From: an uncultured Lachnospiraceae bacterium | Lineage (GTDB): Bacteria > Bacillota > Clostridia > Lachnospirales > Lachnospiraceae | Assembly (NCBI GenBank): GCA_947305245.1 | Contig: CAMZDG010000015.1 | Span: 1-64,000 of the forward strand | Reading direction: 5' to 3' | Length of the DNA: 64,000 bases | Shown here: positions 13,961 to 63,500 of the stretch, piece after piece | Numbering within the stretch: the first letter of the stretch is position 1 | Layout: each line of letters opens with the position of its first letter | The notes under the pieces: generated by a model | What the model saw: the letters and a program-made list of their open reading frames with translations, nothing else | The model's database searches: none | Told to the model about the DNA's origin: nothing | Made by a program: the position numbers and the translations under genes

Positions 13961-13973
13961 GGAACCGATCAAA

Positions 13974-42222: not shown

Positions 42223-42299
42223 GCGGGAACGAATATGGACAGAGGTTGCCGCCCAGGCAGAGAAAAACCTTAACTTGTCTTGGGATCAGGAGGATGAAC

Positions 42300-43534: not shown

Positions 43535-46500
43535 ATGAAGCAACACAAAAAAGGAATGAAATTCAGGGCAGCGGTGGCATGGCGGCGCGCACTCTCATGG
43601 GTGCTGACGCTTGTGATGATCGTGGGACTTATGCCCCAGACCGGCATCACCGTAAGGGCGGAAAGCGGCGACGTAGAGCTGAGCAGTCAGATTTTTACCG
43701 ACCCTGTTTTTTTAGAATTTGTAACGCAGTTTGATACAGATAAAGATGGGAAGCTGAGTGCAGCGGAGCGAAGCGCGGATAAAGCGATTCACATGGTTTG
43801 CCAAATCACCGGAAAGTCAATGCGTTCCTTGGCGGGCTTGGAGTATTTTACTGAGCTGGAGTCCTTGGACTGCGGAGCCAACTACATTACTGAGCTGGAT
43901 GTAAGTAGCTTTCAAAAACTTACCATTTTGGACTGCGGTCACAATTACTATTTGGAAGATCTTAAACTGAATTCGGGGCTGCTAAAGCTGAGTTGCGGTG
44001 CGAATTTGATCGAGACATTAGACGTAAGAGATTGTAAAAACCTGACAGAATTGGAATGTTATGGAGATAACCTTCTGGAACTAAACGTAATAGGATGTAA
44101 AAACCTGACAGAATTGCGCTGTTCTAATGCTGCCGCCATTAAGGAACTAGACTTAAGAGGATGTAAAAACCTGACAGAATTGAACTGTGTTCGTAATGCT
44201 GCCCTTGAGAAACTAGATTTAAGTGAATGTGAAAACCTGAAAAGAGTAGATTGTCGTGCCAACAGTCAACTCGAGGATCTTGATCTGAGCAATACGAAGG
44301 TATATTACTTGAGTTGTTCGGACAACAATTTGGACTCGTTGACTTTAAGCGGGAAGGAAACTTATCTGGATGTCACAGGTAATCCGCTTTCCGAGATCGA
44401 TCTCACGGAAAATACTACCGGACTTAAGGACGCGATCGCTCTGGGCGCGGAAGAAGTTACTGGCTCTGATGGAGAAATAATAAAAAGATACCGAAATGGA
44501 AATTGTTATTTGTATGCTGATTTAGATGACTTTGTATACGGTTATTTATATACCGTTAATCTGAGCGTTGCTTCTGATTCGGTAGGCACGGGAACCCTAA
44601 AAGGAAACGGGACCTATCCGCAAACCAAAACCGTAACCATATCCGCCACGCCGGCGCAGGGGTATGGATTTGATTGTTGGACGGACAGCGACACGGGAGC
44701 TGTTGTAAGCAAGCAGAAAGATTATGCCTTTCAAATTATGAAAGATTGTAATTATACGGCTTCCTTTTTTGACACTGCGACCGTGAATATTGCTGAGACT
44801 AATCGTGGCACTACAACCGGGGCGGGAGACTATGCATATGGGAGCGAAGTGACCCTGACGGCGACTCCGAAAGGAACTTACGGGTTCGCAGGATGGTATA
44901 AGGTGGATGCGGAAGGCAATAATCCTGTATTGGTTTCGGATGAGCCCACATATACCTTTATACCAACTGAGAAAGAAAGTTTTTACATGGCAACATTTTC
45001 CAGAGTAATGATTACCGTTGTAGCCAGTCCCGAGGAAGGCGGTACAGTGTCTGGGGGGGGCCGTAATCCATATGGCGCGCAGGTGACACTAACAGCAACG
45101 CCGAATGAAGGTTGGGGATTTTATGGGTGGACAGGAGTTGGAATAGATGGAACGTCAGAGAATCCTCTTATAATTAATGCAACTGCATCTAGGACATATA
45201 AAGCATTGTTTCGCCAGGTAACCATCGACGTTGCAACGGAAGACTCTGCATTAGGCAGCGTGACTGGCAGCGGCGTGTATGCCTATGGAAGCACCGTTAC
45301 CGTTGCGGCGCAGGTAGAAGGAGCATACGGCTTTAAGGGTTGGTATGATGGGGAAACGATGGTTTCTTCCGATAATCCTTATAGTTTTACGGCATATGAT
45401 GACGTGGCGCTGGAAGCAAGGTTTCACAGGGCGGAAATTACGCTGGTTACAGATCCCACTAATGGAGGCACAGTGAATGGCGCAGGCATCTATCATGATG
45501 GAAACACTGTTACTGTGACTGCTTCTCCGGCAGAAGGATATGGTTTTGCTGGCTGGTATGAAGGCGAAACGAAGGTTTCCTCCAACAATCCATACAGCTT
45601 TACTGCGGATGGGAATAGAACTTTAGAGGCGAGATTTAGAAAGTTCAAGGTCACCGCCACGTCCTCCAAGGGAGGAAGTGTGTCCGGAGGCAAAGAGTAT
45701 CCGTACGGTAGCACTGCGACCGTGACGGCAACGCCTGCGGAAGGGTATGGCTTTATGGGATGGTATCAGGGTGAGAACTTGGTTTCCACAGAGAATCCTT
45801 ACAGCTTTACCGTGGAGGAAGAGACCACTCTTTCCGCGCAATTTGCAAAACAGAAGCTGACCATTTCTCTGGACAGCACACAGGGAAGCGTAAAGGTGAA
45901 CGGAACGGACGTAACTTCCGGGCAGAAATTGGAGTTTCCTTATGGAAGCAGCATCACCCTGACGGCAACTCCTGCCAGCACGTACGGATTCGTTGGATGG
46001 TATGAAAAAGACGTGGAAGAGCCTGTTTTCACGTCTCCTAATTTCAAAGTTCTCTTGGATCGGGATTTGAATCTGACGGCAGAATTCGCTACTTATACAG
46101 TCAATGTTGGGACGAATCCTGAATTGGGCGGAACTGTCACTGGTGCCGGAAATTATGCGCCCGGAAGTCTTGTAACCTTAACTGCGACGCCTTCCTATGG
46201 ATATCTCTTTATGGGATGGCACAAGGAGGGGGATGAGGCCGTTCTTTCTCCGGATGGCACATATCAGTTTACTGCAGAGGCTTCCGTGAACCTTGTGGCA
46301 GAGTTTAAGAAGCCCGAACTCACTCTTATAGTAACGCCTAACAATAATCATGGTACAGTAATCGGAGGAGGCGTCTATAACGTGGGTGAAACCGTGACTA
46401 TAGAAACAGCGCCTGTTGATGACAAACATGTCTTTGTTGGGTGGTATGAGAATGGTGAGCTTGTTACAGCTGACAACAAATATAGCTTTGTCCTTGATAG

Positions 46501-49500
46501 GGATCGGAGCTTAAATGCTGACTATAAGCAGCGCGTCACGCTTAGATTCTCTTCGGGAAACGAGGGACTTGGAACGATGGATCCCGTTGAGATTTTGGAT
46601 CGCTCAGTTTATACCTTACCCGAGTGCGAGTTTACGCCGTTCCTGGGATATGAATTTGATCATTGGGAATATGGACATTTTAACTGGACCTTCTGTGAAG
46701 GAAAGCCTGGGGATCAATGGGAAGTTGAGGAGTTTTACGGGTTGGATGAAATAGAATTCAAGGCGATATGGAAAGAATTATCCTATTCCGTAGAGCTGAG
46801 CGAAGAGAATTTCCCGGATAAGATCTTCCGTGAAAAGCTTGCAAATTATGATGCTGATCATAATGGAGCGCTATCTTCAGGGGAATTGGCACGGATTACC
46901 AATATTTCCATTCTTGACGAAAAGGTTACCAGCCTTCAGGGAATTGAAAAGTTAATTTATTTAAAGAGAATTAGTATTTCGGGAACTCTGTTGACCTCGT
47001 TGGACGTAAGTCAATGTGCGACCCTGGAAAGCCTGTCCTGTTGGGATAATGAGCTGACGGAGATTAAGTTTGGCCCCGCCAATACGGCTTTGGAGTGGGT
47101 TTCATGTAATGATAATAAGATCAAGAAACTGAACCTTTCAGAGCTGCCTTCGTTAAATAGTATCAGCTGCTCACGAAACGAGCTGACGGAAATCAAGGTT
47201 GGCTTGGTGAATACGGCTTTGGAAGAGCTTTACTGTTCTAATAATCAGTTAAAGAGATTAGACCTGACGGGATGTACTGCGCTAAAGAAGCTGTCATGTA
47301 ACAGCAACCAGCTGACAACGCTTAAATTCGCTTCCAGCGCGCCTTTGGAGGAAATCGAATGCGCGAAAAATTCGCTAAGGAAGTTAGACGTTTCGGGGTT
47401 TTCTGCATTAAAGACGCTGTCTTGCTCGGTTAATGAGCTGACAGAGCTCAAGCTTAGTGCCGCGAATACGGCATTGGAAGCGATTGCCTGTGCGGAGAAT
47501 CAGTTGACGGAGTTAGACCTTTCTGGTTTGACATCGCTAAAGAATTTGGTTTGTCGCAAAAACCAGCTGACGAAGCTTACGTTTGGCTCAAACGATGTTT
47601 TGGAAACAGTGTACTGCAGTGAAAACCAGCTGACGACACTGGATCTGTCCTCTGTGAAGGCGCTAGCCAATTTATTCTGTTCACAGAATAAGCTGACTAA
47701 GATCACTCTTGGGAATGGAAAGACTTTGAAGTATTTCGAATGCGATGAAAACCAGTTGGAGGAATTGAAGGTTTCCGATCAAAAAGGGTTGCTTAGCCTG
47801 AGCTGCAATCAAAATCCGTTGAAAGCGTTGGACGTGAGCAAGAATACGGCCCTGCAGTGCCTCTATTGCAATAATTGTGCTTTAACTGAACTGGATACTA
47901 GCAATAATAAGGCGTTGCTCGCATTGGAATTCGAGAACAATCAGATCTCAAGTTATAGTCCAAGCAAGAACAAAGCGCTTCAAACTCTCGTTGTAAAAGA
48001 TAATTTATTGAACAGGCTTCAAATTGGAAACTGTGAGGAACTGAATTATCTCGACATTCGCGGAAACAAGGATCTACGTTTTATCGACATTAGCAAGAAT
48101 GATCCGCTCAAGGAAGACGGAGACGGTACGCTGTTGAAGGATGATTACCAAACGACGTACGAAGAAGAACCGGATACCGTCACGATTATTGCGGAAATAT
48201 CTCCTGAGGGCGCAGGCAGCGTCAGCGGCACTGGGAAATGGATTGTGAACCAAATGGTAACGCTGGAGGCAATCCCTGCGACGGGTTATTGCTTTGTGGG
48301 TTGGACGGAAGATGACAATCCCGAACCCTTCTCTGAGAATCCGGAGCTTTCTTTTAAGGCGGTAAAGAATAGAATACTTACGGCATGTTTCGAGAAGGGC
48401 TGCGCCATTACCTTTAATCCCGGCGAAGGAAGCGGGGAGATGAAGCCGGTTACCGTGGGGGTTAACGCGACCTATCAGTTGCCGGTATGCTCTTTCGAAA
48501 GACCGGAAGGAAAAGTGTTCGCCTATTGGAACTATGGAAAACCCGGCGATGAAATCACGGTGAAAACAGACACGACTCTTTATGCGGAGTGGGAGAAGGG
48601 CTATCACGTTTCCGTTGCTGCTAACATGAGCGGTGATTTCTATCAGTTGGAAGGCGCCGGGGATTACCTGGATGGCGAGGATGTAACAATCCATGTTACG
48701 ATTGACAGTCATAAAGCCTATGTAGTGGCAGCCATGATGATCGACAACACCGTTGTCAGCACGTCTGATACCTATACATTCAAGCCGGAAAAGGATACGG
48801 TGGTGCAGATTATGCTGGTTGAGTCATATTTTGCAAGCTTTATCCCCGGGCTAGGAACGGGAGAAGACTACATGCAAATCGTTGGTGTGAGTCAATACCT
48901 TACTATGCCGGAATTCACCTTCACGCCGCCTGCGGGAAAGGTGTTCAAGTGTTGGAAGGATAATTATGGAAAAGAGCATTGCCCCGGTGAGTATTACGTG
49001 CAAGACATCGCAGAAAATGTTGTATTTGCTGCAACCTATAAGAAAGAGACGGACCCCTGCACCGTCAGATTTGATCTGAATGGTCACGGCACGCAGAATC
49101 CTGATGCGCAGCCGGAGACGCAGACGGTAGAATATGGCGGAAAAGCGACAAAGCCTGCTACGGATCCCTCTGAACCGGGCTGGTTCTTTAGAGGCTGGGA
49201 AGCCTATGTCACCGTGGACGGTACGAAGCAGTGGGTACTGTTCGATTTCGAGAATGACGTGGTCCAGAATGACTTGTGCCTCAGGGCCCGCTGGGAAGTA
49301 AACATAAATGAGCAAGTGGTGATCATTTCCTTCGACGCAGGTGAAGGAACCGGCAACATGAACAGTATGCTGTTGGTGAGCGGCACGCCTTATACTCTGC
49401 CGGAGTGCGGATTTACGGCGCCGGAAGGATGTGTGTTTGACTGCTGGAAGTTGGACGAGTACGCCAGTGATAAGTATTATCCCGGCGATCCCTATAAGAA

Positions 49501-50539
49501 TCCTGACGGGGTAGGCACCGTATGCTTCCTGGCAATCTGGAGGGAGAAGCCTGGCGAGCTGACGGCGACCTTTGGACACACCTGCGAGTTCCAAAATAGG
49601 ATCACAATGAATTATAAGATTACCGTAGATCTTTCGGAATATGATGACTTCTGGCTTGCCATCGAGAGACAGACCTATAAGGGAGCCGGAGAGGAATTCT
49701 ATTGGGAGACGGCGGAAGTTAGGGACTGGTATCAGGATCCGAAAGACAAAAGATATGTATTCGCCTTTGACGACATTGCAGCAGCTGAGATGGGCGAGGT
49801 GATTCGAGCTAAGCTGGTTGCGGAGAAAGACGGCGAAACATATGAAAGCAACGTCGATGTTTATAGCCTGAAGACCTATGCGTACAACAGAATTGCAAAA
49901 TCATCTGATGTAAAGTTCAAAAAGCTGATGGTTGACATGCTCAACTACGGCGCGGCGGCGCAGATCTACTTTGGGAAGAACACGGGTAATCTTGTCAACG
50001 CCGACCTGACGGAGGCCGAAAGGAAGCTGGGAACGCAGAAAGAGGTTACGCCCTTGGTCATTGAAAGCGTGACGGACAACGTGGATGAGACGGCAAGGAT
50101 CGTGTCAAAATCCGTGGCGTTCAAGAGCGGCGTTGAGCTTAACGCGCACGTCAACTATGACGCAGAGCCCGCGGAAGACGAAAAAGTCTGGGTGGAGCTG
50201 ACCTACGTGGCGACCTCCGGCGATTCAAAGAGACAGGTCGTGACCAGGGACAAGTTTGTCCGCTCGGTGAAGGACGGGGTGGTAAGGTACAGCGCGGCCT
50301 TTGACATCATCGCGACGCCTGACTTCGGGAAGGAAGTCACGCTGAAGGTATTTAGGACGGTCGAGGAGGACGGCGTGTCCACGGACGTGCAGATCAGCGA
50401 GACCTACACCTACAGCCTTGAGACCTACGCGGCGAACAGACTTGCCAACAGTGAGAATAAGAATTTCAAGGCGCTGCTGAGGGAAATGCTGAAGTACGAA
50501 AGAAGCGCGAAAGAGTTTTTTGAATCACAGCAGCATTGA
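43535..50539 (+). CDS. Giant secreted protein: EF-hand loops, leucine-rich repeats, InlB-B-like repeats, shared C-terminal module
   Basis: 2334 aa. Signal peptide ends at about residue 46 (ITVRAES). Near 66 an EF-hand-like loop (DTDKDGKLSAAE) precedes a first block of about 21-residue leucine-rich repeats (about 95-290, LxxLxC-type, as in internalins). About eight InlB-B-like repeats of roughly 75 residues follow (345-1085; GGTVxGAGxYxxGxxVTLTATPxxGYxFxGWY). A second EF-hand-like loop (DADHNGALSSGE) and a second leucine-rich block cover about 1088-1545, then more InlB-like repeats to about 2005. The final 326 residues are the shared module. No LPXTG. Likely a cell-surface adhesin or carbohydrate-binding protein. 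Confidence 0.85.
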   Translation: MKQHKKGMKFRAAVAWRRALSWVLTLVMIVGLMPQTGITVRAESGDVELSSQIFTDPVFLEFVTQFDTDKDGKLSAAERSADKAIHMVCQITGKSMRSLAGLEYFTELESLDCGANYITELDVSSFQKLTILDCGHNYYLEDLKLNSGLLKLSCGANLIETLDVRDCKNLTELECYGDNLLELNVIGCKNLTELRCSNAAAIKELDLRGCKNLTELNCVRNAALEKLDLSECENLKRVDCRANSQLEDLDLSNTKVYYLSCSDNNLDSLTLSGKETYLDVTGNPLSEIDLTENTTGLKDAIALGAEEVTGSDGEIIKRYRNGNCYLYADLDDFVYGYLYTVNLSVASDSVGTGTLKGNGTYPQTKTVTISATPAQGYGFDCWTDSDTGAVVSKQKDYAFQIMKDCNYTASFFDTATVNIAETNRGTTTGAGDYAYGSEVTLTATPKGTYGFAGWYKVDAEGNNPVLVSDEPTYTFIPTEKESFYMATFSRVMITVVASPEEGGTVSGGGRNPYGAQVTLTATPNEGWGFYGWTGVGIDGTSENPLIINATASRTYKALFRQVTIDVATEDSALGSVTGSGVYAYGSTVTVAAQVEGAYGFKGWYDGETMVSSDNPYSFTAYDDVALEARFHRAEITLVTDPTNGGTVNGAGIYHDGNTVTVTASPAEGYGFAGWYEGETKVSSNNPYSFTADGNRTLEARFRKFKVTATSSKGGSVSGGKEYPYGSTATVTATPAEGYGFMGWYQGENLVSTENPYSFTVEEETTLSAQFAKQKLTISLDSTQGSVKVNGTDVTSGQKLEFPYGSSITLTATPASTYGFVGWYEKDVEEPVFTSPNFKVLLDRDLNLTAEFATYTVNVGTNPELGGTVTGAGNYAPGSLVTLTATPSYGYLFMGWHKEGDEAVLSPDGTYQFTAEASVNLVAEFKKPELTLIVTPNNNHGTVIGGGVYNVGETVTIETAPVDDKHVFVGWYENGELVTADNKYSFVLDRDRSLNADYKQRVTLRFSSGNEGLGTMDPVEILDRSVYTLPECEFTPFLGYEFDHWEYGHFNWTFCEGKPGDQWEVEEFYGLDEIEFKAIWKELSYSVELSEENFPDKIFREKLANYDADHNGALSSGELARITNISILDEKVTSLQGIEKLIYLKRISISGTLLTSLDVSQCATLESLSCWDNELTEIKFGPANTALEWVSCNDNKIKKLNLSELPSLNSISCSRNELTEIKVGLVNTALEELYCSNNQLKRLDLTGCTALKKLSCNSNQLTTLKFASSAPLEEIECAKNSLRKLDVSGFSALKTLSCSVNELTELKLSAANTALEAIACAENQLTELDLSGLTSLKNLVCRKNQLTKLTFGSNDVLETVYCSENQLTTLDLSSVKALANLFCSQNKLTKITLGNGKTLKYFECDENQLEELKVSDQKGLLSLSCNQNPLKALDVSKNTALQCLYCNNCALTELDTSNNKALLALEFENNQISSYSPSKNKALQTLVVKDNLLNRLQIGNCEELNYLDIRGNKDLRFIDISKNDPLKEDGDGTLLKDDYQTTYEEEPDTVTIIAEISPEGAGSVSGTGKWIVNQMVTLEAIPATGYCFVGWTEDDNPEPFSENPELSFKAVKNRILTACFEKGCAITFNPGEGSGEMKPVTVGVNATYQLPVCSFERPEGKVFAYWNYGKPGDEITVKTDTTLYAEWEKGYHVSVAANMSGDFYQLEGAGDYLDGEDVTIHVTIDSHKAYVVAAMMIDNTVVSTSDTYTFKPEKDTVVQIMLVESYFASFIPGLGTGEDYMQIVGVSQYLTMPEFTFTPPAGKVFKCWKDNYGKEHCPGEYYVQDIAENVVFAATYKKETDPCTVRFDLNGHGTQNPDAQPETQTVEYGGKATKPATDPSEPGWFFRGWEAYVTVDGTKQWVLFDFENDVVQNDLCLRARWEVNINEQVVIISFDAGEGTGNMNSMLLVSGTPYTLPECGFTAPEGCVFDCWKLDEYASDKYYPGDPYKNPDGVGTVCFLAIWREKPGELTATFGHTCEFQNRITMNYKITVDLSEYDDFWLAIERQTYKGAGEEFYWETAEVRDWYQDPKDKRYVFAFDDIAAAEMGEVIRAKLVAEKDGETYESNVDVYSLKTYAYNRIAKSSDVKFKKLMVDMLNYGAAAQIYFGKNTGNLVNADLTEAERKLGTQKEVTPLVIESVTDNVDETARIVSKSVAFKSGVELNAHVNYDAEPAEDEKVWVELTYVATSGDSKRQVVTRDKFVRSVKDGVVRYSAAFDIIATPDFGKEVTLKVFRTVEEDGVSTDVQISETYTYSLETYAANRLANSENKNFKALLREMLKYERSAKEFFESQQH
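44034..44177 (+). repeat. DNA repeats in the first leucine-rich block
   Basis: A nearly identical run of about 20 bases (TGTAAAAACCTGACAGAATT) recurs three times about 60-63 bases apart, each encoding CKNLTEL. The repeats are recent at the DNA level, unlike the more diverged flanking units. Confidence 0.7.
50141..50427 (+). repeat. 287-bp block identical to 56902-57188
   Basis: Base-by-base comparison at an offset of 6761 shows no mismatch across 287 bases. Flanking parts of the module differ at scattered sites. This is inside the second half of the shared C-terminal module. Confidence 0.85.
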
Positions 50540-50583
50540 CGGATGAACTAAAAAGATAAAACAGAAAAATTGCTACAAAACTG

Positions 50584-50617
50584 CGGAGACGCGCGAAAAC
50601 GCGTCTCCGTATTATTA
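50584..50617 (+). terminator. Intrinsic terminator after the first giant gene
   Basis: A perfect 10-bp stem CGGAGACGCG/CGCGTCTCCG with loop CGAAAA, followed by an A/T-rich tail (TATTATTATT). Confidence 0.75.
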
Positions 50618-50733
50618 TTAAAATACTACTTTTGGGTGATGACAAAATGGAAACTTAATGCTATGGTGTTACTATAAGATGCCATAAATCGTTTTATGCA
50701 AAAGAAAACCAATATTTTTGGGAGGGACATAAA

Positions 50734-53700
50734 ATGAAAGTTAAGAAGCGAAATCGCAGACTGTTGGCTAAGGCGCTGATCCTGTCACTGTGCATTACCA
50801 TGCTGCCGATTGATGCGCTTTCTATGACTGTAAGCGCCGAGACGGAAGAAATGGGTACTGCCGTAGTGCCTGGTGTGGGAACGGAAGAAACAGGTACTGC
50901 CGTAGTGTCTGGTGCGGGAACGGAAGGAACGGGTAAAGTCGCATTGCCGGAAGAATCGGGAAATATCGTAGTGCCTGGCGCCGTTGCGGAAGGAGCGGGT
51001 ACTGTCGTAGTGACTGGCGCCGATGCGGAAGGATCGGGCGGCTCCGGTGTAACTGGCAAAACAGATGTAGTTGTGACCAGTAATACGCCAGATGGCGGCG
51101 CAACTGTGACTGTAACGGATGGTACGGGAACCGAAAAGCCGGAAGACGGGGAAACCAAAGATTCGGAAGGTGAGGAAACCAAAAATCCGAATGATGGCAA
51201 GGGAGGCGAAGGTGGTTCTTCGGATCCTTCCGGCAATTCGGGGAATGTCGGGAGCACCGTAGAGCCTGATTTCGAGTGGGAAGGTCAGGGCACGGAACAG
51301 AGCCCGTACCTGATCCAGAGCGAGGCGGAGCTGCTTGGACTGGCAAAGAGCGTGAACGCCGGAAATTCTTATAAGGACCAATATTTTCTGCTGACGGAGG
51401 ACCTGGATCTTTCGTCTGTTTGCGGTGCAGATTTAGACGGAAAGATTGTGAACTGGGAACCTATCGGGTATGCGGCGGACATTACTTTTTACGGGAATTT
51501 TGACGGTAACGATAATAGCATTTCCAATTTGTACATTGAGGCGGGAACAAGTGATTATCAGGGTTTATTTGGAACCATTTCCGGAACCGTGAAAAATCTG
51601 AACGTCAGCGGAACCGTTAATGGAGGAAGTCGCGTCGGCGGCATCGCAGGCTATGTCATCGGAACGATTACGGACTGTGAGTTTAGCGGAGAGGTCCAGG
51701 GAACGGATTACGTCGGCGGCATTGCGGGCGTGCTTGCGCCTGAAGGCACATTAACCTATTTAACGTCTGATGCCGCCGTTTTTGGTAAGGGCACCTGTGT
51801 CGGCGGTATTGTCGGATGGGCGAATGGCATTCCTGGCGCAAAAAGTATCTGGGATACGCTGGATGGCGGTTTCGTGGACTACGGCAAAGGGTGGAGCTAC
51901 AGCGAGGATATTACCGATTGTACTTTCGAAGGCATGGTGTCTTATTTGGGAGATTCTCACGCAGATACGATTTTTAACGTCGGCAAGGGAACCCTTTCAC
52001 TGGAACACAGGAATGATTCCTGTGGCGGCATTGCTGGCGCATGTACTGGCAGAGCGATTAGTTACTGTTACAATGAGGGTACCATTATTCAGGGAGCCCA
52101 GATGGCAGGTGGCGTGATCGGCATCAGTTATCGGAATGACGTTCAGGATTGCGCGAACTATGGGACGGTGATTTGCCCTCAAAATTCAACGAATTTTAAG
52201 CTCAAAGCGAAGGAACAACAGCAGGAGGAGCAGCAACAGCAACAGGAAGGGATTCGCCGCTATATCAAGCCGGTTGTAATAAGGTATGGCGGAGAGACAT
52301 TTATCACCAATGACACGAGAGAAAGAATATCGAGCATGAAGGGAAATGGCGGTATTGCAGGAATCTCGTGGCTGGGAACCATTGAGACGTGTGAGAACTA
52401 TGGCGAAGTTGATTCTCATGTCACCGCAGGCGGAATTGTAGGATTCGCACATGAAACCAAGGTGTCTGAATGCGTGAATCGTACAGGCGGAAGCGTTACT
52501 TCAAACGTGAACGCAGGCGGTATCATGGGAGAGGGATGGAGCATCAAGCAGTTTGAGGAATGCGTTAACTACGGAACGATCACTGCAAAGAGTGATCTGG
52601 GCGGCATTTGCGGATTCTGTCAGGGGCATATCAAGAAGTGTAATAATCATGGAACCCTGATCGGAGACGCGAACCAAGACAGTATGGGCGGCATTGTTGG
52701 TTACGTTGAAGATGGCTCCGTCACGGAATGTTACAATAATGGAGACATTGGAGTATTCTGCAATTACGAGGGCTATGACAGCGGAGGTATTGCCGGGCTT
52801 TGCATGACCAGTACGATCTCCTATTGCCTGAATGCAGGAGGCGTGCAAGGCGGAACGAACGTTGGCGGCATCGTGGGAAGCCTTCAGTTGGAAAGCCTTG
52901 TAACGGAGTGTAAGAATCTTGGCGACGTAACCTCTTTGCGTGATGACATAGCCTGCGTAGGGGGTATTGTCGGACTTTGCATCAGCAATAATAAAAATGG
53001 TCATATGGACGGTGGCAGCACCATCTCGAAATGTGTGAATGGAGCAGGAACCACAGTTTCGGCAAGACGTTTCAACGTAGGTGGCATTGTTGGACAGCTG
53101 CATACCGGAAAAGTATTAGACTGCTATAACTTGGGAATCGTTCACGGAGAGGCTTCTGTCGGTGGCATCGCCGGAATTATTTCAGGAAGGCAAATAGAAT
53201 TATGCAGAAATTATTGCATGGCACCGAGTGAATATCCGGGCGGTGGGTACGGCATAGATAAAACTGACGTCAATGGTTTGGCGGGAGGAGTGATTGGTTA
53301 CACTAAGACGGCCGACGTGCAAATTCATGATAACTATTGGTGGACTTCCTGTAGCGCACGGGCATATGGATGGCGCTCTGCTCCGACCATAGAAGGAGAG
53401 GTTAAGGGTTACGATAACTTAAATCAATTTACGGTCGCAACGAATTTTAATAATTGGGACTTTAATACTGTTTGGACGATGGTTGGTCAGCCGGTTCTTC
53501 GTTATGAGACAGAGATGTCAGGGTTCTTCGCAGAGGCAGCTCAGGAGCAGGATGAAAGCATCTTGGACGATCCCTATGGGCTTGGCGGAGGCGGCAGCGT
53601 GGTGATCCAAGGACCCACGGGCGGCTACGGAAGCTCATTTGCAAGGACGCTATGCATCTGGAGCGTTGATGACCTTAAGAATTTCCGTAATGCGGTAAAT

Positions 53701-56700
53701 CAGGGAGATGATTATGAGAATGCCATGGTTGTCCTTTGTACGGACCTTAATCTGACTGGCGAGGATTGGATTCCCGTCGGAACCTATAATAATGATGATT
53801 ATTGGGACGACGAAGCATGGCGTCCTTTCCTAGGAAGCTTTGACGGCCGAGGACATTCCATTAACGGGCTTTACGCAGATTGCGGTGAATTGCCGGCCGG
53901 ATTCTTTGGCTATATTGGCAAAGGTGGAAAGGTAAGCAATTTATATGTTTCCGGTTCCGTAAAGAGCGCCGGCAGGGCGATCGGCGGCATCGTCGGCCAC
54001 CTGGATGATGGGGGCAGAATAGAGAACTGTGTTTTTGAAGGGACCGTTACCGGCTGTGGAGGGGCAGATTGCGTCAATGACGAAGAAGTAAATAATGCTC
54101 CCGTCGTCGGAGGCATTGTCGGACGATCCCTCGGATATCTGTATTACTGTTACCATGTTGGCGACGTTACTACCGAATATGGCTTTGCCGGAGGCGTTGC
54201 AGGACGGCTCCAAGGGAGTGGAAACCGCATGAACTATTGTTTCCAATACGGCGGTAACATTTCAGGCGGGCGCATTGGCAAAACGCTTTACAATTTGAAT
54301 ACGACTACGGGCGGTTTGATTGGAATGGCAAGCAGTACGTACGTCAATGACAGCTATTGCGCTTGTACGGGAACCAATAGAGTCTTTGGATATCAAGTTA
54401 GCTCGGCGAACAATTCCTGGAATGTTGCTTTTGTAGACGCGGCATGGCTTAAGAATGTTCAAAACCTTACGACCAATGGCAAAAATTGGGACATTAGCGA
54501 CGAAGCCGGCCACATCTGGGGTATGGGAGAAAACTACCCGGTGCTTCAGGTCTTCAGCAAGAAGGTGACCTTGGATCCGGATGATGCATCGGGAGAAGCA
54601 AAGACGGTTTGGATATCAAGATGGGAGGACCTTAAGCCAAATGCACAGCCAGAGAGCGATATGGTTGTCATTCGGTTCCGGGGAAATGGCGGAAGCAACT
54701 TCATGGATTCCATTTCCGTAGTGAAGGGAGAGACAATTAGCCTGCCTGCAAATGAATTTACCAGGATCGGTTATGACTTCGGCGGTTGGAAGACGGGATT
54801 TGATGAGTCCGATGTCCAGTATGGCGATCAGCAGTCAATTACCGTAGATCAGGATCTTTGCCTCTATGCAACTTGGTTACCCGTTTCCTATACGATTGGA
54901 TTTGCTACAAACGGCACCAATCATGAAATTCTGTACAGTGAAGTGATGCAGTCGGGGAAAACGCCCGTATACGGCGGAGCGGCACCTACGTATGTTGGGG
55001 CATCCACCGGAACAGAGGATCAGTGGATCTTTGACGGATGGTCACCCATGATTGACGTGGTTGCGGGTGAGTTCACGTATCAAGCCAAGTTTGTCAATAA
55101 GCTTCAGGAATATAGCATTAGCGTTCAATTCGGAACGGCTGATCTTGCCACGGCCATGGCCGGAGAGCAGGTACAGATCACGGCGGGCGCGCCGGGCACG
55201 GGCAAGGTCTTCGACCATTGGGAGAGCTCGGACGTAACCGTAATGAATCCGATGGACGTAACGACCAGCTTTACAATGCCGAGAAAGAACGTATTCATCA
55301 CGGCAGTTTATAAGAACGCATCCTATCCCGTTACCCTTGACACGCAGGGAGGCACGATCAATGATGGCAACGTTACGACGTATACCTATGGAGAAGGAGC
55401 GTCGCTTCCGACGGACGTGACGAAGGATCATTATATGTTTGAAGGCTGGTATACCGGACGAAACGGTACCGGCAGCAAGGCGGAAGTGATCGGAATGGAT
55501 GAGACCGGAGAGAGAACCTTCTATGCCTATTGGAAGCCGGTTCCTTATGACGTGACGATCCAAGCCGGGAATGGAATGAGCCTAAAGGCTGGTTCCGGGG
55601 CAGAGACGCAAATGAACGTTACGGAAGAGATCATCTCCGTGGTTTATGTTGCGGCAGAGGGATATTGTTTCCCTGACTACTATTACACAGCCTCAAAGGA
55701 TGGCCTGACCGTGACGAGAGACAGCGTTTCCCAGATCACGGTTTCCGGAAGACCTACGGCGGACGTACAGCTGACGCTGAGAGATGCAATAGCAAAGGAA
55801 CAGGAGGATACTCCCGAGGCAGAGTTTAACGCTACGGGAACGGACAGTGGTACCCTTAGCCATTTGGTAGTAGGAGCAAAGTATGTTGTTACCTTCTCGG
55901 TTTACGATGAAGTAAGCGGTACGTGGGTGGCCGGAACGGTTTCCCCCATGGAGTTTACTGCAACAGGTATCAATCAGTCGATCACGGGCCTGTCCGAGGG
56001 CTTGCTTGGCATAGTAAGAAAGGGCGGAGACACGACGCTCGACAGTAAGAAAGAACAATTCACCATTTACGGCGGCATCATTCCCGACTATGTGGAAACG
56101 GAAGACTGTACGGGAAATGATAGTAATGACGGAGCGATCCGTGGCGTTAACAATACAATGGATTACAGAAAGTCTGGTGACACTGACTGGACAATCGTCA
56201 CGGGACAGGTGATTACGGGACTGGCGCCCGGTACCTATGAGCTTCGCGTGAGACCTGACGGAACCCAGCTTGCCTCTGAGATCAAGACCGTGATGGTCTG
56301 GAGTGAGAAGCCGGATGCGCTGGATGCAGTCTTTGGCCACACCTGCTCTTTCCAAAATAGGATCACGATAAATTACAAGATCACCGCGGATCTTTCGACA
56401 TATGACGATTTCTGGCTTGCCATCGAGAGACAGACCTATACGGGAGCCGGAGAGGAATTCTGTTGGGAGACGGCGGAAGTTAGGGACTGGTATCTAGATC
56501 CTGATGACGGAAGGTATGTGTTCCCCTTTGACGACATTGCGGCAGCCGAGATGGGCGAAGTGATCCGCGCGAAGGTCGTTGCGGTAAAGGACGGTATGAT
56601 TTACGAGAGCGCCGTTGACGAATACAGCTTAAAGACCTATGCGGAAAACAGGATCCGGAAATCGGATGACCCGATATTCAGGAAGCTCATGGTGGACATG

Positions 56701-57300
56701 CTGAACTACGGCGCAGCGGCCCAAGTTTACTTTAAAAAGAACACGAATCACCTTGCCAATGCCGACCTGACGGAAGACGAAAGGAAGCAGGGAACGCAGG
56801 AAGAGGTTACGCCCGTGGTCATTGAAAGCGTGACGGACAACGTGGCTGAGACGGCAAGGATCGTGTCAAAATCCGTGGCGTTCAAGAGCGGCGTTGAGCT
56901 GAACGCGCACGTCAACTATGACGCAGAGCCCGCGGAAGACGAAAAAGTCTGGGTGGAGCTGACCTACGTGGCGACCTCCGGCGATTCAAAGAGACAGGTC
57001 GTGACCAGGGACAAGTTTGTCCGCTCGGTGAAGGACGGGGTGGTAAGGTACAGCGCGGCCTTTGACATCATCGCGACGCCTGACTTCGGGAAGGAAGTCA
57101 CGCTGAAGGTATTTAGGACGGTCGAGGAGGACGGCGTGTCCACGGACGTGCAGATCAGCGAGACCTACACCTACAGCCTTGAGACCTATGCGGCGAACAG
57201 ACTTGCCAACAGTGAGAATGAGAATTTTAAGGCGCTGCTGAGGGCAATGTTGAAATATGAGAGAAGCGCACTCGCATATTTCACTAGAACGACCTCATAA
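50734..57300 (+). CDS. Giant secreted protein: GLUG repeats, Listeria-type repeats, shared C-terminal module
   Basis: 2188 aa. Signal peptide ends near residue 37 (MTVSAET). A Gly/Thr/Val/Glu-rich region of 16-residue repeats covers about 40-110. Long arrays of GLUG-type repeats (GGIVG…C.N.G.V) occupy about 180-930 and again 965-1270, each opened by a YLIQSEAELLGLAKSV or LCIWSVDDLKNFRNAV segment. A Gln-rich patch (EQQQEEQQQQQE) lies near 493-504. InlB/Listeria-type repeats (GYDFGGWKTGFDE, MFEGWYTGRNGTG) follow, with a fibronectin-like part near 1690-1850. Residues 1862-2188 are the shared module. No sortase motif. Start supported by GGGAGGGA. Confidence 0.85.
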   Translation: MKVKKRNRRLLAKALILSLCITMLPIDALSMTVSAETEEMGTAVVPGVGTEETGTAVVSGAGTEGTGKVALPEESGNIVVPGAVAEGAGTVVVTGADAEGSGGSGVTGKTDVVVTSNTPDGGATVTVTDGTGTEKPEDGETKDSEGEETKNPNDGKGGEGGSSDPSGNSGNVGSTVEPDFEWEGQGTEQSPYLIQSEAELLGLAKSVNAGNSYKDQYFLLTEDLDLSSVCGADLDGKIVNWEPIGYAADITFYGNFDGNDNSISNLYIEAGTSDYQGLFGTISGTVKNLNVSGTVNGGSRVGGIAGYVIGTITDCEFSGEVQGTDYVGGIAGVLAPEGTLTYLTSDAAVFGKGTCVGGIVGWANGIPGAKSIWDTLDGGFVDYGKGWSYSEDITDCTFEGMVSYLGDSHADTIFNVGKGTLSLEHRNDSCGGIAGACTGRAISYCYNEGTIIQGAQMAGGVIGISYRNDVQDCANYGTVICPQNSTNFKLKAKEQQQEEQQQQQEGIRRYIKPVVIRYGGETFITNDTRERISSMKGNGGIAGISWLGTIETCENYGEVDSHVTAGGIVGFAHETKVSECVNRTGGSVTSNVNAGGIMGEGWSIKQFEECVNYGTITAKSDLGGICGFCQGHIKKCNNHGTLIGDANQDSMGGIVGYVEDGSVTECYNNGDIGVFCNYEGYDSGGIAGLCMTSTISYCLNAGGVQGGTNVGGIVGSLQLESLVTECKNLGDVTSLRDDIACVGGIVGLCISNNKNGHMDGGSTISKCVNGAGTTVSARRFNVGGIVGQLHTGKVLDCYNLGIVHGEASVGGIAGIISGRQIELCRNYCMAPSEYPGGGYGIDKTDVNGLAGGVIGYTKTADVQIHDNYWWTSCSARAYGWRSAPTIEGEVKGYDNLNQFTVATNFNNWDFNTVWTMVGQPVLRYETEMSGFFAEAAQEQDESILDDPYGLGGGGSVVIQGPTGGYGSSFARTLCIWSVDDLKNFRNAVNQGDDYENAMVVLCTDLNLTGEDWIPVGTYNNDDYWDDEAWRPFLGSFDGRGHSINGLYADCGELPAGFFGYIGKGGKVSNLYVSGSVKSAGRAIGGIVGHLDDGGRIENCVFEGTVTGCGGADCVNDEEVNNAPVVGGIVGRSLGYLYYCYHVGDVTTEYGFAGGVAGRLQGSGNRMNYCFQYGGNISGGRIGKTLYNLNTTTGGLIGMASSTYVNDSYCACTGTNRVFGYQVSSANNSWNVAFVDAAWLKNVQNLTTNGKNWDISDEAGHIWGMGENYPVLQVFSKKVTLDPDDASGEAKTVWISRWEDLKPNAQPESDMVVIRFRGNGGSNFMDSISVVKGETISLPANEFTRIGYDFGGWKTGFDESDVQYGDQQSITVDQDLCLYATWLPVSYTIGFATNGTNHEILYSEVMQSGKTPVYGGAAPTYVGASTGTEDQWIFDGWSPMIDVVAGEFTYQAKFVNKLQEYSISVQFGTADLATAMAGEQVQITAGAPGTGKVFDHWESSDVTVMNPMDVTTSFTMPRKNVFITAVYKNASYPVTLDTQGGTINDGNVTTYTYGEGASLPTDVTKDHYMFEGWYTGRNGTGSKAEVIGMDETGERTFYAYWKPVPYDVTIQAGNGMSLKAGSGAETQMNVTEEIISVVYVAAEGYCFPDYYYTASKDGLTVTRDSVSQITVSGRPTADVQLTLRDAIAKEQEDTPEAEFNATGTDSGTLSHLVVGAKYVVTFSVYDEVSGTWVAGTVSPMEFTATGINQSITGLSEGLLGIVRKGGDTTLDSKKEQFTIYGGIIPDYVETEDCTGNDSNDGAIRGVNNTMDYRKSGDTDWTIVTGQVITGLAPGTYELRVRPDGTQLASEIKTVMVWSEKPDALDAVFGHTCSFQNRITINYKITADLSTYDDFWLAIERQTYTGAGEEFCWETAEVRDWYLDPDDGRYVFPFDDIAAAEMGEVIRAKVVAVKDGMIYESAVDEYSLKTYAENRIRKSDDPIFRKLMVDMLNYGAAAQVYFKKNTNHLANADLTEDERKQGTQEEVTPVVIESVTDNVAETARIVSKSVAFKSGVELNAHVNYDAEPAEDEKVWVELTYVATSGDSKRQVVTRDKFVRSVKDGVVRYSAAFDIIATPDFGKEVTLKVFRTVEEDGVSTDVQISETYTYSLETYAANRLANSENENFKALLRAMLKYERSALAYFTRTTS
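50854..51045 (+). repeat. 48-bp repeats near the start of the second giant gene
   Basis: Four imperfect in-frame units of 48 bases encode GTAVVPGVGTEETGTAVV-like 16-residue repeats. Likely a flexible spacer, prone to length change. Confidence 0.65.
56902..57188 (+). repeat. 287-bp block identical to 50141-50427
   Basis: Partner of the block in the first giant gene. The third copy (about 59943-60229) is clearly related but diverged at many positions. Confidence 0.85.
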
Positions 57301-57322
57301 ATGGATTATTTTTGAAGTGAGA

Positions 57323-57367
57323 GGACCGTCTTGGATGGGTATTCCCATCCGGGACGGTCCTTTTCTA
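57323..57367 (+). terminator. Intrinsic terminator after the second giant gene
   Basis: GGACCGTC/GACGGTCC outer stem with inner GGATGGG/CCCATCC, followed by TTTTCT. Confidence 0.8.
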
Positions 57368-57405
57368 TTTGCGGGCAATAATTGCGCAGAAATTTGTTCG
57401 ATAGA

Positions 57406-57414
57406 TGGTATAAT
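57406..57414 (+). promoter_or_regulatory. Extended -10 promoter of the third surface-protein gene
   Basis: TGGTATAAT is a TG-extended -10; no clear -35 at the right distance. The start codon is 35 bases downstream with CAAAGGAGG between. Confidence 0.45.
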
Positions 57415-57448
57415 AAAAAGTAAAGCATATGCAAAGGAGGAATGAAGA

Positions 57449-60343
57449 ATGGTAAACCGCACAATCTCAGGGCGTATATTCATGGCAACTGCGCTAGTGC
57501 TTTTTACGATGATCATGTTGGGCGGGAAAGCATTGGCAGGAAGTCAGGCAGGCAATAGCGCCTTGCTCGCCAATGATTCAGATATGGCGGCCAGCGTGCA
57601 GCATTTTTCAATCACGGGGCAAGGCGTGCCAAGCAGTACGAGAAATCCTGCAGGCTCATATTCGGCAACGACGCCGAATGTCATTAGCTTTCTTGATGCA
57701 TCGAATAGGCTCAACGTGTGCTATTTTCAGGATGGAAAGCTGATAATTCAGCGATTTCAGACGGCAACGATGGAAAAGCTTGGACAGATAGAAATTATCG
57801 CCAGATATGCAAAGTTTGGCAACGTCACCTGCGACGCATCAGGGAATTATTATGTCGTTTGGGCACAAAATGATTCGTCGGCAGAGAATATTGTCACGAT
57901 GTCCATTGCCAAGTATAACAGTGAAGGAACCTTTCAACAGGCGTTAGACATTCCGGGTTTTGAGTCGACTCCTGCCTTTGGAGAAGATGGCGGAACCAAG
58001 AATCCATTCAATTCCGGAAACTGTGACCTGGCTATTCAAAACGGGATTCTCGCGGTCAATTATGGCAGGCAAATGTATAATGGTCATCAGTCGAACATGA
58101 TCATTTATGTGAATCTGAGTACCATGACGAGGGTTTCGTATAATACCGTGTATACGAGTCATTCGTTTGATCAAAGGATTTATGCCGCGTCGGACGGAAT
58201 TTCATTCCTTGCCTTAAATCAAGGGGATGCATATAATCGGTGTTTTTCCGTTGCAAAGATTTCGACCTCGAGCCAGGCAGGCTATGGAAAGCTGGAGAAT
58301 TTCCATTTCCGCGAAGGTGCCACCAGATCGTATGGATACAATGAGACTTTTGCGCAGATGGGCGGTCTTGCAGAAACACAGTCCGCGTATGTCTTTGCGG
58401 GAAGCTCGGAGCGCATTTTGTCTCTCGCGGAGGCACCCAGCACGATTTACATGGGGCATAATGATGCGCGAGACCTATTCCTTCAGTTTTTGAAAAAGAA
58501 TTACACGCAGTATAGCGGGGCAAACTGCTACGCCGTTGCCGGAGAGACGAGGGCGGCGGAAGGACAGGTGCCGACGAATCCCAGCACAAACCTGTTCCTA
58601 GACGGCGATGAAGTGGATTATGGAGTCCTCTGGCTGACGAATTATGATGAAGATCATTATGTCGCGCACCCGAAGGTGGTGTCGATCGGCGACGACAAAG
58701 TGGCGGTTCTTTGGGAGAAGAGGGCATATTCCGGGACGGACGTCAGCGCTTATTTTGCCATATTGGATTCCAATGGAAACGTTGTTCGGGACACCGCGCT
58801 GATGATGGACACCATGCTGGCTGCCGACACGGATCCGGTATACTTCAACGGAAAGATCTATTGGGCGACAAACGATACTTACGGATTCCGATGGAATGTG
58901 CTTGATCCGAATGCTGCCCTGATCCCTTCGCATGAACATCATTTCGTTGAAAATTCGAGAACCGGAAATGTCGTTCAGCTCCGCTGTGACATTTGTGGAT
59001 TTACGAGAGAGATCGTGACGGCTTCCTCGATCTCTTATTACTTGAAACCGAACGGCGGAGGATACTTATGGAGCTCCGTTTATGAATCATCGGGTTTGGC
59101 GGTCGCGTCGGGAGAGAAAGTGTCGCTTTTGATCAAACCGGAAAGCGGCAGCACGGATGTCATTGAGACTAAAATATCAGACGGCAGGCTGGCATGCTTT
59201 GCCGACGGGAGCACGACGACCACGGAATTGAACCCCGTGATCATTGCAAAGAGAGGCGGAAAGGTGCAGGTGACTATTACGCCATTATATGTTTCTAATC
59301 CCGTGACGAGGAAGTTTTACTTAAATATTACGAAGGGGGAAGGGCCCGAATATGATGACGGGTATATAACGACAGAGTTTGGTCATACCTGTGATTTCCA
59401 GAACAAGATTGAGTTGATCTATAAGGTGACTGCACAGCTGGACGGTTATGATGAATATTGGCTTGCCATTGAGAGGCAAAGCTTCCAGGGAGCAGGGGAA
59501 GAGTTCGTCTGGGAGACGGCGGAGATCCATGAGAGTCATAAGGATGATGACGGAAGATATGTTTTCGCCTTTAACGACATTGCTGCCGCGGAAATGGGTG
59601 AGATCATTCATGCAAAAGTTGTTGCAAAGAAGGGCGACAAGATTTATGAGAGCGATGTCGATGAATACAGCTTAAAGACCTATGCGGAAAACAGGATTCG
59701 GAACTCGGACGATCCTAAATTTAGGAAACTTATGGTGGACATGCTGAACTACGGCGCGTCGGCTCAGGTTTACTTTAAGAAGAACACGAATCACCTTGTT
59801 AACGCCGGCCTGACGGAAGACGAAAGGAAGCAGGGAACGCAGGAAGAGATTACGCCCGTATCCGTTGAAAATGTGTCGGAGAATGTGGCGGAGACGGCAA
59901 GGATCGTGTCAAAGTCCGTGGCATTCAACAGCGGCGTGGAGCTGAACGCGTATGTTAACTATGACGCAGAGCCCGAGGAGGACGAAAAAGTCTGGGTGGA
60001 GCTGACCTACGTGGCGACCTCAGGCCTGTCAAAGAGACAGGTCGTGACTAGGGACAAGTTTGTCCGCTCGGTAAAGGACGGGGTAGTAAGGTACTGCGCA
60101 GCCTTTAACATCATCGCGACGCCAGACTTCGGGAAGGAAGTCACGCTGAAGGTATTTCGGACGGTTGAGACGGACGGCGTGTCCACGGACGCGCAGATCA
60201 GTGAGACTTACACCTATAGTCTCGAGACCTATGCGGCAAACAGACTAAAAAACAGTAAAGACGATAATTTCAAGGCGCTGTTGAGGGCGATGCTGAAGTA
60301 CGAAAGGAGCGCACTGGCCTTCTTTTCAAAACCTTCAGAATGA
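57449..60343 (+). CDS. Secreted protein with beta-propeller-like N-terminus and shared C-terminal module
   Basis: 964 aa. Signal peptide ends near residue 31 (GKALAGS). Residues about 40-490 have repeated beta-rich units with WAQN, VLWEK and YWATN-type strands, compatible with a propeller, but the fold is not certain. A HEHHF…CDICGF segment near 491-515 is a short His/Cys motif that may bind zinc. An Ig-like beta domain follows (about 525-630). Residues 640-964 are the shared module. GGAGG is seven bases before the start; a competing ATG at 57442 is out of frame. Function likely surface binding. Confidence 0.78.
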   Translation: MVNRTISGRIFMATALVLFTMIMLGGKALAGSQAGNSALLANDSDMAASVQHFSITGQGVPSSTRNPAGSYSATTPNVISFLDASNRLNVCYFQDGKLIIQRFQTATMEKLGQIEIIARYAKFGNVTCDASGNYYVVWAQNDSSAENIVTMSIAKYNSEGTFQQALDIPGFESTPAFGEDGGTKNPFNSGNCDLAIQNGILAVNYGRQMYNGHQSNMIIYVNLSTMTRVSYNTVYTSHSFDQRIYAASDGISFLALNQGDAYNRCFSVAKISTSSQAGYGKLENFHFREGATRSYGYNETFAQMGGLAETQSAYVFAGSSERILSLAEAPSTIYMGHNDARDLFLQFLKKNYTQYSGANCYAVAGETRAAEGQVPTNPSTNLFLDGDEVDYGVLWLTNYDEDHYVAHPKVVSIGDDKVAVLWEKRAYSGTDVSAYFAILDSNGNVVRDTALMMDTMLAADTDPVYFNGKIYWATNDTYGFRWNVLDPNAALIPSHEHHFVENSRTGNVVQLRCDICGFTREIVTASSISYYLKPNGGGYLWSSVYESSGLAVASGEKVSLLIKPESGSTDVIETKISDGRLACFADGSTTTTELNPVIIAKRGGKVQVTITPLYVSNPVTRKFYLNITKGEGPEYDDGYITTEFGHTCDFQNKIELIYKVTAQLDGYDEYWLAIERQSFQGAGEEFVWETAEIHESHKDDDGRYVFAFNDIAAAEMGEIIHAKVVAKKGDKIYESDVDEYSLKTYAENRIRNSDDPKFRKLMVDMLNYGASAQVYFKKNTNHLVNAGLTEDERKQGTQEEITPVSVENVSENVAETARIVSKSVAFNSGVELNAYVNYDAEPEEDEKVWVELTYVATSGLSKRQVVTRDKFVRSVKDGVVRYCAAFNIIATPDFGKEVTLKVFRTVETDGVSTDAQISETYTYSLETYAANRLKNSKDDNFKALLRAMLKYERSALAFFSKPSE

Positions 60344-60536: not shown

Positions 60537-63500
60537 ATGAAATTCAAGAAAATCCGGAAAATGTTGTTTATGATGATGCTGAGCGCCGGAATTGTTGTTA
60601 CGTCTACGCCAGTGCCTGTTTATGCAGCTTTAATTGAAGTGGGTGCGCCTGAACCGGATACTACGATTGACATAATCAATGTTGGTGCCTCGGGAGCCAC
60701 GATAAGCGAAGGGACCGGGACCACGACCACAGGAACTACAGGAACTGCAACTACGACGCCCGTGGGAGGAGGAGATGCAGGCATAGCACCCGTAGGAGGT
60801 GAAGAGGCTGGAACTACTGCGCCCGTGGGAGGCGAAGGGGCTGGAACTACTGCGCCTGCGGTAGGCGAAGGAAGCCAGGTGGACACAGAAAACAAAACCG
60901 ACGTAACAAATAGCGCGGCAGGAACCACGGTAGACTTGGAAGCTGGAGCGTCTGGTTCGACAGTAACCACGGAAGGCTCAACCGCGGTAGGCGGAGGAAC
61001 CACAACCCCGGGAGGCAATGGCTCCAATTTAAATTTGGGAAATCCTGGGACTGACGGAACTGTTACGGTTTCGGTTCCCCACATTTATTCTTCTCAGCCT
61101 GAAAGAACGGTAACATATAAGGCTACGGACACTCACATTGATATGACGTTGGAGATGGATAATCTTCAAGATTACTATGAATGCTTTGGCGGCTCTAGTC
61201 ATTTTTGGGCGATAAACTTTAGCGACGGTAACAATTACCGCATGGTCGTGAATAGCCCTTATGGCATGAACGGGACATTCTCCATCCCTGAAATGAACGG
61301 ATCTTTCATGCTGAAATTAGGCGAGTATAACTATCAGAACGTGGATGCTACAGTTACGGTCAGCGGAAATGTGATTCAATGGTCGGCTGACATCCCGACA
61401 TATTGGAACCAGACGTTTTCTTTGGATGATTTTTCGATCAATAGTTATGAGGCGTCTTCCTACGAAGATCCGCATATTACTTCCGCCGTGTATGACTGGG
61501 AGATGGATGTAGCCGGAAAGGTGACGATCCGTGATAAGGCAGCTGGCTCTGACGGGCGCCCCCTGCTTGATCTATACCGTAACATGGACTCTGTTACGTC
61601 AATTGATCTGGACGTGACTTCCTGGGAAGTATGGACGGGGTATTTCTCAAATTTCCCCAATTTGGAAACAGTTCGCATTCGCGCTGGTCAGATCGCGGAT
61701 AATAGCACCTTTATCAGATTGTTTTATAACTGCCCCAAGCTAAAGAGTGTTGATTTAAACGGCCTTGATGCCTCCGAAATCACTTCCATGCAAAGCATGT
61801 TCAGCAATTGCCAGGCCTTGGAGACGGTTGATCTGGGAGGCATGAACACTTCCAACCTGACGGATACCTGCGCGATGTTCTCTGGATGCGGCAGCTTAAA
61901 GGCTGTGGATCTGACTAGTTTTGATACCTCAAACGTGACAAATGCCTGTGACATGTTCAATTGTCGCAACGAGCTGTACGGCGCAGGGGGAAATTATATT
62001 GGTTTCACTTCCAGTCTGGAAAGCATCACCTTTGGAAGCCAGTGTACTTTCGCAAGCACTTATAACATGAGCGGCATGTTTGCTAATTGCTCCAATCTGA
62101 AGCAATTGGATTTAAGCAGCTTTAATACCTCCAACGTCACTTACATGTCCAATATGTTCAACGGGTGTAAGAAGCTGGAATCATTGAACCTGAGCAGCTT
62201 CGATACTTCGAATGTAGAAAACATGTACTATATGTTTGGCCAATGTTCTTCTTTGCAAACCCTGGATCTGAGCAACTTTGACACCTCAAAGGTGACGAAT
62301 GTTTCCGGAATGTTTGTCTGCTATAGCTCCGTGTACGATGAGCAGGGATCTTACGCTGGTACCGTGACCAACTTGAAGTCGATCATATTTGGCGATCAAT
62401 GTACCTTTGCCAATGTTACGAGCATGCAATCCATGTTCTACGGATGCAGTAAGTTGGAAGCTCTTGACCTGAGTAGCTTCAATACTTCTAACGTTACAAA
62501 TATGAACTTGATGTTCAGCGGCTGCTCAAGTCTCACGCAACTGAACATGAGTAGTTTCAATACCTCCAGCCTCACGTCCATGAGAGAGATGTTCCGTGAA
62601 TGCGTTAATCTTGAGGAGATAGACCTGACAAGCTTTGACACTTCCAATGTTACGGATGTTAATTTTGCGTTCAATTGCTCCAAAGTTTATACTGATGAGA
62701 ATCATAACTCTATCGAGCTGGATCCTAAACTGAGAGAGATCAAGTTTGGAGAAGATTGCACCTTCGAGAGTCTTGATTCCATGGCATATATGTTTATGGG
62801 TTGTAGGAGCCTTGAAGCACTGGATCTTAGCAGCTTCGACACCTCCAACGTGACGAGCTTTGCGGAAATGTTTAGCGGCTGTTCAAGTCTTACGCAGTTA
62901 GATCTGAGCGGCTTTAACACTTCCAACGTTACGGACATGGTAGGCATGTTTCAAGGTTGCGCAAGCCTGTCTGAGATCGACCTGAGTAGCTTTGACACAT
63001 CCAAGGTTACGAATGCATCCGGGATGTTTGCATGCAGCAGCTATTATTTTGACGAATATGGGGATTACCAGACAATTTACCCTCAGCTGACCAAAGCCAC
63101 CTTTGGCAGTAACTGTACCTTTGCAAGTGCCACCGATCTGAGTTCAATGTTTAGCGAAGATCTGAATCTGCAGTCTTTGGATCTTAGCATGTTTGACACT
63201 TCGAACTGTACGGACATGTCATCTATGTTTTTCCAATGCTCTGGTTTGGAGAGCGTGAACCTAAACAGCTTCGACACTTCGAAAGTGACTGACGTTTTTT
63301 GTATGTTCTACGGTTGCAGTGGCTTAAAACAGCTGAACTTAAGCCATTTTGACCTTAGCGCCGTGGAAGAATCAGACGGATTTATTGAAATCTGGGGTTC
63401 GCAGATGAAGAAGTTCCAGTCGCCCAAGAATGTCTCCTTCCTGGCATATCTTCCCGATGTGAATAATTCCTGGCTCGATTATGAGACGATGGAAGAAACC

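Follow-up and report, generated by a model that had tools for sequence, protein, structure and literature searches.

A paired terminal module on exported proteins of an uncultured Lachnospiraceae bacterium, a putative non-covalent surface-attachment unit

The window is the whole stretch of DNA that was analysed, 64,000 nucleotides at positions 1 to 64,000 (forward strand) of contig CAMZDG010000015.1 (C15) in assembly GCA_947305245.1, from an uncultured Lachnospiraceae bacterium. The genes of interest, whose products share one terminal module, and the copies of that module are as follows; positions are those of the window unless marked C15.

43535..50539, + strand: module gene 1, 2334 aa; LRR and InlB-type repeats behind a signal-peptide-like start, module at the C terminus
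49571..50539, + strand: module copy 1, 322 aa; halves at about 49571-49975 and 50036-50539, including the stop
50734..57300, + strand: module gene 2, 2188 aa; GLUG and InlB-type repeats behind a signal-peptide-like start, module at the C terminus
56332..57300, + strand: module copy 2, 322 aa; halves at about 56332-56736 and 56797-57300, including the stop; AlphaFold2 target
57449..60343, + strand: module gene 3, 964 aa; no Pfam match in the front, which has a signal-peptide-like start; module at the C terminus
59378..60343, + strand: module copy 3, 321 aa; halves at about 59378-59779 and 59840-60343, including the stop
60537..64000, + strand: module gene 4 (start only), 1966 aa, DUF285/PARCEL repeats; leaves the window
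C15:65460-66419, + strand: module copy 4, of module gene 4; outside the window
C15:68091-69053, - strand: module copy 5, on the opposite strand to the other copies
C15:73499-74452, + strand: module copy 6, of the sixth module gene

A reading of the sequence alone had described three consecutive giant proteins with unrelated fronts and a common C-terminal module of 325-330 residues running from FGHTC to YERSA. The common end and its FGHTC start stand, but the module is 321-322 aa long and a further 9 residues lie between YERSA and the stop. Genes 1 and 2 are giant, whereas the third protein has only 964 aa. The fronts are not all unrelated, genes 1 and 2 both carrying InlB-type repeats (Flg_new and Flg_new_2; Pfam). 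The three genes in the window are indeed consecutive, but the contig holds six in total, and a search of the whole genome found 6 module copies, all on C15. Pairwise identities of the window modules (BLASTP, copies 1-3) were 88, 77 and 82%. C15 ends at 74456, 1 base past the stop of the sixth module gene, so more copies may have been lost in assembly. Directly upstream of module gene 1, on the same strand, lie a histidine-kinase-like ORF and a LuxR-type response regulator (window 40918-42929), a possible candidate regulator of the module cluster. In a 516-aa ORF (window 37527-39077), HAD-type phosphatase models matched the first half and CPBP intramembrane protease models the second, with scores under the equivalog cut-offs among the matches listed.

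The two halves of the module are mutually related, as had been noticed from the letters. First and second halves of different copies were 35-38% identical over 80-91 columns (BLASTP, E down to 8.8e-12), and an hhalign comparison of 11 first with 11 second halves gave a probability of 99.2%, E 2e-19 and 28% identity over 127 columns. Module copy 2 was modelled using AlphaFold2 (pLDDT 92.9), and each half as modelled consists of an FN3/Ig-like beta-sandwich and, after it, a two-helix hairpin, the order of elements being identical in both halves rather than two different folds. Fold searches returned only generic FN3/Ig-type and arrestin-type rows that barely covered the helix hairpins, which hold 10 of the 17 invariant columns of the module.

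At the DNA level, copies 1, 2, 5 and 6 have exact runs of 226-423 bases in common, comprising the linker and the second half; identity over their first-half stretches is 74-87%. Copy 5, although on the other strand, also has the long exact runs; copies 3 and 4 have no exact run above 48 bases in common with any copy. The pattern in copies 1, 2, 5 and 6 looks like what gene conversion would leave. Exact runs that include an inverted copy could also support inversions.

No accepted model in Pfam or NCBIfam describes the module, in agreement with the first description of it as uncharacterised. NCBIfam returned no row for the three window modules at E up to 1, and Pfam gave them a single sub-threshold row, DUF4944 in gene 3 (18.5 bits against a cut-off of 23). 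When 24 module members were scanned against Pfam, 12 scattered weak families appeared at E up to 0.1 (best E 0.0056); SLH (PF00395), WxL and dockerin type I (PF00404) gave no row at that threshold, and DUF4214 (PF13946) did not match the module in the scan. The dockerin type I model consists of two calcium-loop repeats, and a WxL match would be expected in the C-terminal 120-190 residues. LPXTG/sortase substrates carry an LPXTG-type motif, a membrane helix and a charged tail at the C terminus; the three window proteins have neither the motif nor a helix there, the module reaching the stop with no LPXTG and no membrane tail after it, as first reported. Against PDB sequences, the half profile reached a best E of 0.24 and the tandem profile had no match at E up to 10. 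Plasmids gave no module match, none of 7 pattern matches on viral contigs was a module relative, and a text search of open-licence literature returned no paper with the module motifs or on Lachnospiraceae surface-protein C-terminal domains. A known family was thus rejected, the rows being weak and scattered in Pfam, absent in NCBIfam and negligible in the PDB. None of the libraries searched describes the module family; modules of this kind are already known, this one is not.

The module was sought in genome samples of widening rank, the bacterium's own genome included. It was present in 6 of 101 genomes of the genus (tandem profile, E up to 1e-3) and, using the half profile at E up to 1e-5, in 11/299 genomes of the family, 2/295 of the order and 18/393 of the class. 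In the phylum sample, the only one extending beyond the class, it was present in 2/318 (same profile and cutoff), namely its own genome and one genome of the same class. Named relatives, found at 18 or more loci using two short peptide patterns, belong to Clostridia, Clostridiales, Oscillospiraceae and Saccharofermentans MAGs, with isolate names mostly from the ruminant gut. One member of the genus had 23 module profile matches, some of which may be two pieces of one protein. Module genes are clustered in the bacterium's own genome and scattered over contigs in many others.

Position and export were surveyed in 91 proteins whose ORFs are complete at either end and differ from one another in the final 200 residues; ORFs cut by the end of a locus were dropped, and the profile was rebuilt from 205 halves of the same loci. 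The set is not random: regions were chosen by hand and some near-duplicates are left. At least two halves were found in 89/91 of these complete ORFs, the exceptions with one half being a 148-aa ORF and L160. The last half ended within 30 residues of the stop in 72/91 and 31 residues from it in 1/91. In 13/91 the pair is N-terminal, after the signal peptide, with 643-706 residues downstream of it, and in 5/91 it lies elsewhere inside the protein. By a crude, permissive rule, a signal-peptide-like start was called in 85/91 module ORFs versus 51/131 long non-module ORFs of the same loci. The half-module profile search proposed in the sequence-only reading placed the module on mostly export-like proteins (85/91) and mostly towards one end of the protein (C-terminal in 72/91, N-terminal in 13/91), and not mainly in cytosolic proteins or mid-protein positions. 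Among the N-terminal cases checked, Pfam identified three as DUF4838 proteins and gave no match for two others, which resemble beta-helix enzymes by eye. The stretches downstream of internal modules are metallo-beta-lactamase- or NlpC/CHAP-like by eye. Fronts were scanned against Pfam for 62 of 73 candidates, leaving out genes 1 and 2, fronts below 150 residues and the longest proteins. They matched LRR, InlB-type, LamG, CAP, Big_2, solute-binding, transglutaminase, CHAP, subtilase, GH43 and other families; among the 25 of 30 families listed, no single family occurred in more than 6 of the 62 fronts and no wall-anchor family was present.

What stands in the place of the module in relatives was then read from two kinds of front. 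The LRR region of module gene 1 has homologues in 34/393 genomes of the class. Tails were surveyed in 20 regions plus L216, L217 and L007, where 24 ORFs matched and 22 were complete at the 3' end. Of these 22, seven ended in SLH units (five called by Pfam, two from the SLH search listing). Three ended in DUF4214, two in dockerin and two in Fn3 units, each of these groups including one tail read by eye, with the rest called by Pfam. One had a ChW tail, two had membrane-type tails (by eye) and three had other tails. One more, L260 of the bacterium's own genome (C38:18500-22500), has a tail that is SLH-like by eye, without a Pfam call or a match in the SLH search. The module was the tail of one, from the own genome only, so the exchange is seen between genomes and not in close orthologue pairs. 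As wall anchors, the Fn3, dockerin and DUF4214 tails of these homologues are putative only and not proven.

The second front is the DUF4838 enzyme of L040, which had strong matches in 3/28 genomes, at 49-51% identity across some 640 residues, and weaker matches in another 6. One orthologue (G920) has the module in front and another (G011) a divergent module pair in front (domain E 9.1e-8 and 5.3e-10), while the third (L278 of G1002) has four DUF4214 units at its N terminus (Pfam). LRR proteins of G1002 end in DUF4214 as well (L249 by Pfam, L250 by eye). DUF4214 units are thus N-terminal on a DUF4838 enzyme (L278) and C-terminal on LRR proteins (L249 of G1002, L264 of G878), and their presence at the termini of both suggests that DUF4214 may itself be an attachment unit. 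Terminal units are swapped at one place among relatives, and the exchange of the module with SLH, DUF4214, dockerin and ChW units is the main, though indirect, support for reading it as an attachment unit.

Since the module stands at the site of known wall-attachment units in relatives, it is probably an attachment tail. It may be a putative non-covalent surface-attachment unit, similar in action to SLH, WxL and CBM37 and belonging to none of the families tested, a reading given about an even chance of being right. The first description had offered sorting, anchoring or assembly as its role; export-like starts, variable fronts, the terminal place and the swap with SLH, dockerin, ChW and DUF4214 units favour anchoring, whereas the 13 N-terminal and 5 internal cases of 91 argue against a cleaved C-terminal sorting signal. 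Under the attachment reading, the protein would be exported first and the pair would fold outside the cell, where it would bind an envelope component, which could be a wall glycopolymer, peptidoglycan or a surface protein. LRR, InlB-type, GLUG, protease, transglutaminase and glycosidase fronts would thereby be displayed on the cell. Two units may provide avidity, as with repeated LysM or SLH units, and gene conversion between copies could keep the tail alike while the fronts diverge. The module would not be the sole means of display, given that SLH was found in 4/25 module-bearing genomes (E up to 1e-5; at least 150 matches listed in G920) and sortase in 23/25, with one sortase in the own genome. 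A more far-reaching proposal, which is doubtful, is that of a new class of non-covalent envelope anchor: an FN3-plus-helix-hairpin pair with a specific wall receptor, in Clostridia-type bacteria mostly without SLH (absent from 21/25 module-bearing genomes at E up to 1e-5), in which gene conversion, involving inverted copies too, keeps the tail uniform as a homology platform for new fronts. If this were true, the cell could change its surface equipment by exchanging the fronts borne on a single tail.

Four other roles were weighed. That the module is a carbohydrate-binding module targeting plant or host glycans, and not the producer's own envelope, is judged unlikely: most Pfam-matched fronts are not carbohydrate-active (LRR, CAP, transglutaminase, CHAP, subtilase), and the module holds the place of SLH, ChW or dockerin units in relatives. 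Such a role would nonetheless suit its fusion to DUF4838 enzymes, the presence of GH43, NPCBM, LamG and ricin-type lectin among the fronts, and the mostly ruminant-gut isolate names of the named relatives. It has a parallel in CBM37, which the excerpted text of PMC4081043 describes as a binder of many polysaccharides that attaches to the cell as well.

A docking or assembly unit, binding a dedicated surface protein as a dockerin does or pairing module proteins with each other, is distinctly unlikely. Dockerins do occupy the same place on 2/22 LRR homologues (one called by Pfam, the other by eye), and the copies of the own genome are clustered, as WxL genes are in the portions of PMC5817068 and PMC10599100 consulted. 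In the model and alignment, small conserved residues of the second helix could pack against a partner; however, no partner family was identified in the gene neighbourhoods, and module genes are spread over contigs in many genomes.

FN3/Ig folds are also common as passive spacers, and the beta parts of the module resemble such domains. A spacer or folding aid without a ligand is still quite improbable here, spacers usually lying between domains whereas the module is nearly always exactly paired and terminal, with its conservation concentrated in the helix hairpins (10/17 invariant columns).

The remaining alternative concerns a radical SAM enzyme encoded among the module genes. The features involved are:

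L007:10482-11825, + strand: radical SAM/SPASM-like gene between module genes 4 and 5 (together with the next ORF, C15 about 66481-68070)
L007:11946-12071, - strand: 41-aa precursor-like ORF beside the radical SAM gene
L101:12420-12533 and 12617-13981: short ORF (37 aa) and radical SAM gene inside the module cluster of G018

The own radical SAM protein is nearest to SPASM peptide maturase models, below the curated cut-offs among the matches listed. The G018 enzyme is 39% identical to it and has the similar 37-aa ORF alongside, the short ORFs of both clusters having a common stretch around VEVIEL...DII.TS; a short Cys-rich ORF with a similar stretch adjoins the homologue in G011. A radical SAM homologue was found in 4/6 module-bearing genomes of the genus versus 7/101 of all genus genomes (Fisher p 1.2e-4, which ignores kinship), and the two module-bearing genomes without it are 74 and 80% complete. 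The enzyme was rejected as maturase of the module; with its own short precursor-like ORF it looks like a peptide cassette separate from the module. In two genomes of the genus this cassette is embedded in the module cluster. A role for the module as a C-terminal signal for sorting or processing, which the neighbouring radical SAM enzyme might modify, is hardly credible: the module's C-terminal position in 72/91, the radical SAM/SPASM gene between module genes in the own genome and G018, a homologue some 7 kb from a module gene in G208 and the enrichment in the genus (4/6 versus 7/101) are set against the N-terminal (13) and internal (5) cases of 91, the short peptide ORF with the shared stretch beside the enzyme in both clusters, the Cys-rich ORF in G011, homologues in G011 and G046 lying away from module genes in the stretches examined, and the absence of a homologue from 9/15 other module-bearing genomes (E up to 1e-10).

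In uncultured gut Clostridia, the ends of many large exported proteins match nothing named in the domain libraries, so their location is not predictable. One recognisable tail would unite a set of such proteins and predict which of them remain cell-bound. Its small size, confident model and ease of expression make the attachment reading directly testable.

Among known systems, CBM37 of Ruminococcus albus is described in the excerpted text of PMC4081043 as occurring in multiple copies per genome, at times in tandem, on secreted proteins that differ from one another; it is said to attach the enzymes of R. albus to its cell wall, and orthologues in R. flavefaciens carry dockerins in its stead. 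The module is like it by that description in its multiple copies on dissimilar secreted proteins and in its tandem arrangement, and is set apart from it, again by description only, because CBM37 is described there as R. albus-specific and linked to carbohydrate-active proteins (PMC4081043). WxL domains, in the parts of PMC5817068 consulted, are C-terminal, bind peptidoglycan non-covalently and are encoded in clustered genes; together with SLH they are precedents for wall binders (PMC5817068 and PMC10599100, in part). In the own genome the module has the same C-terminal place and clustered genes, whereas it has no WxL match in Pfam and is a pair of predicted FN3-plus-hairpin units. FN3/Ig-like domains resemble only the predicted beta parts of its halves. 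DUF4214 (PF13946), with units of about 70 residues that occur in fours and do not match the module, is like it in being N-terminal on a DUF4838 enzyme and C-terminal on LRR proteins. SLH (PF00395), although its units are about 44 residues long and have no sequence match to the module, is terminal and repeated, non-covalent as the module putatively is, and stands in the same place on 7/22 LRR homologues.
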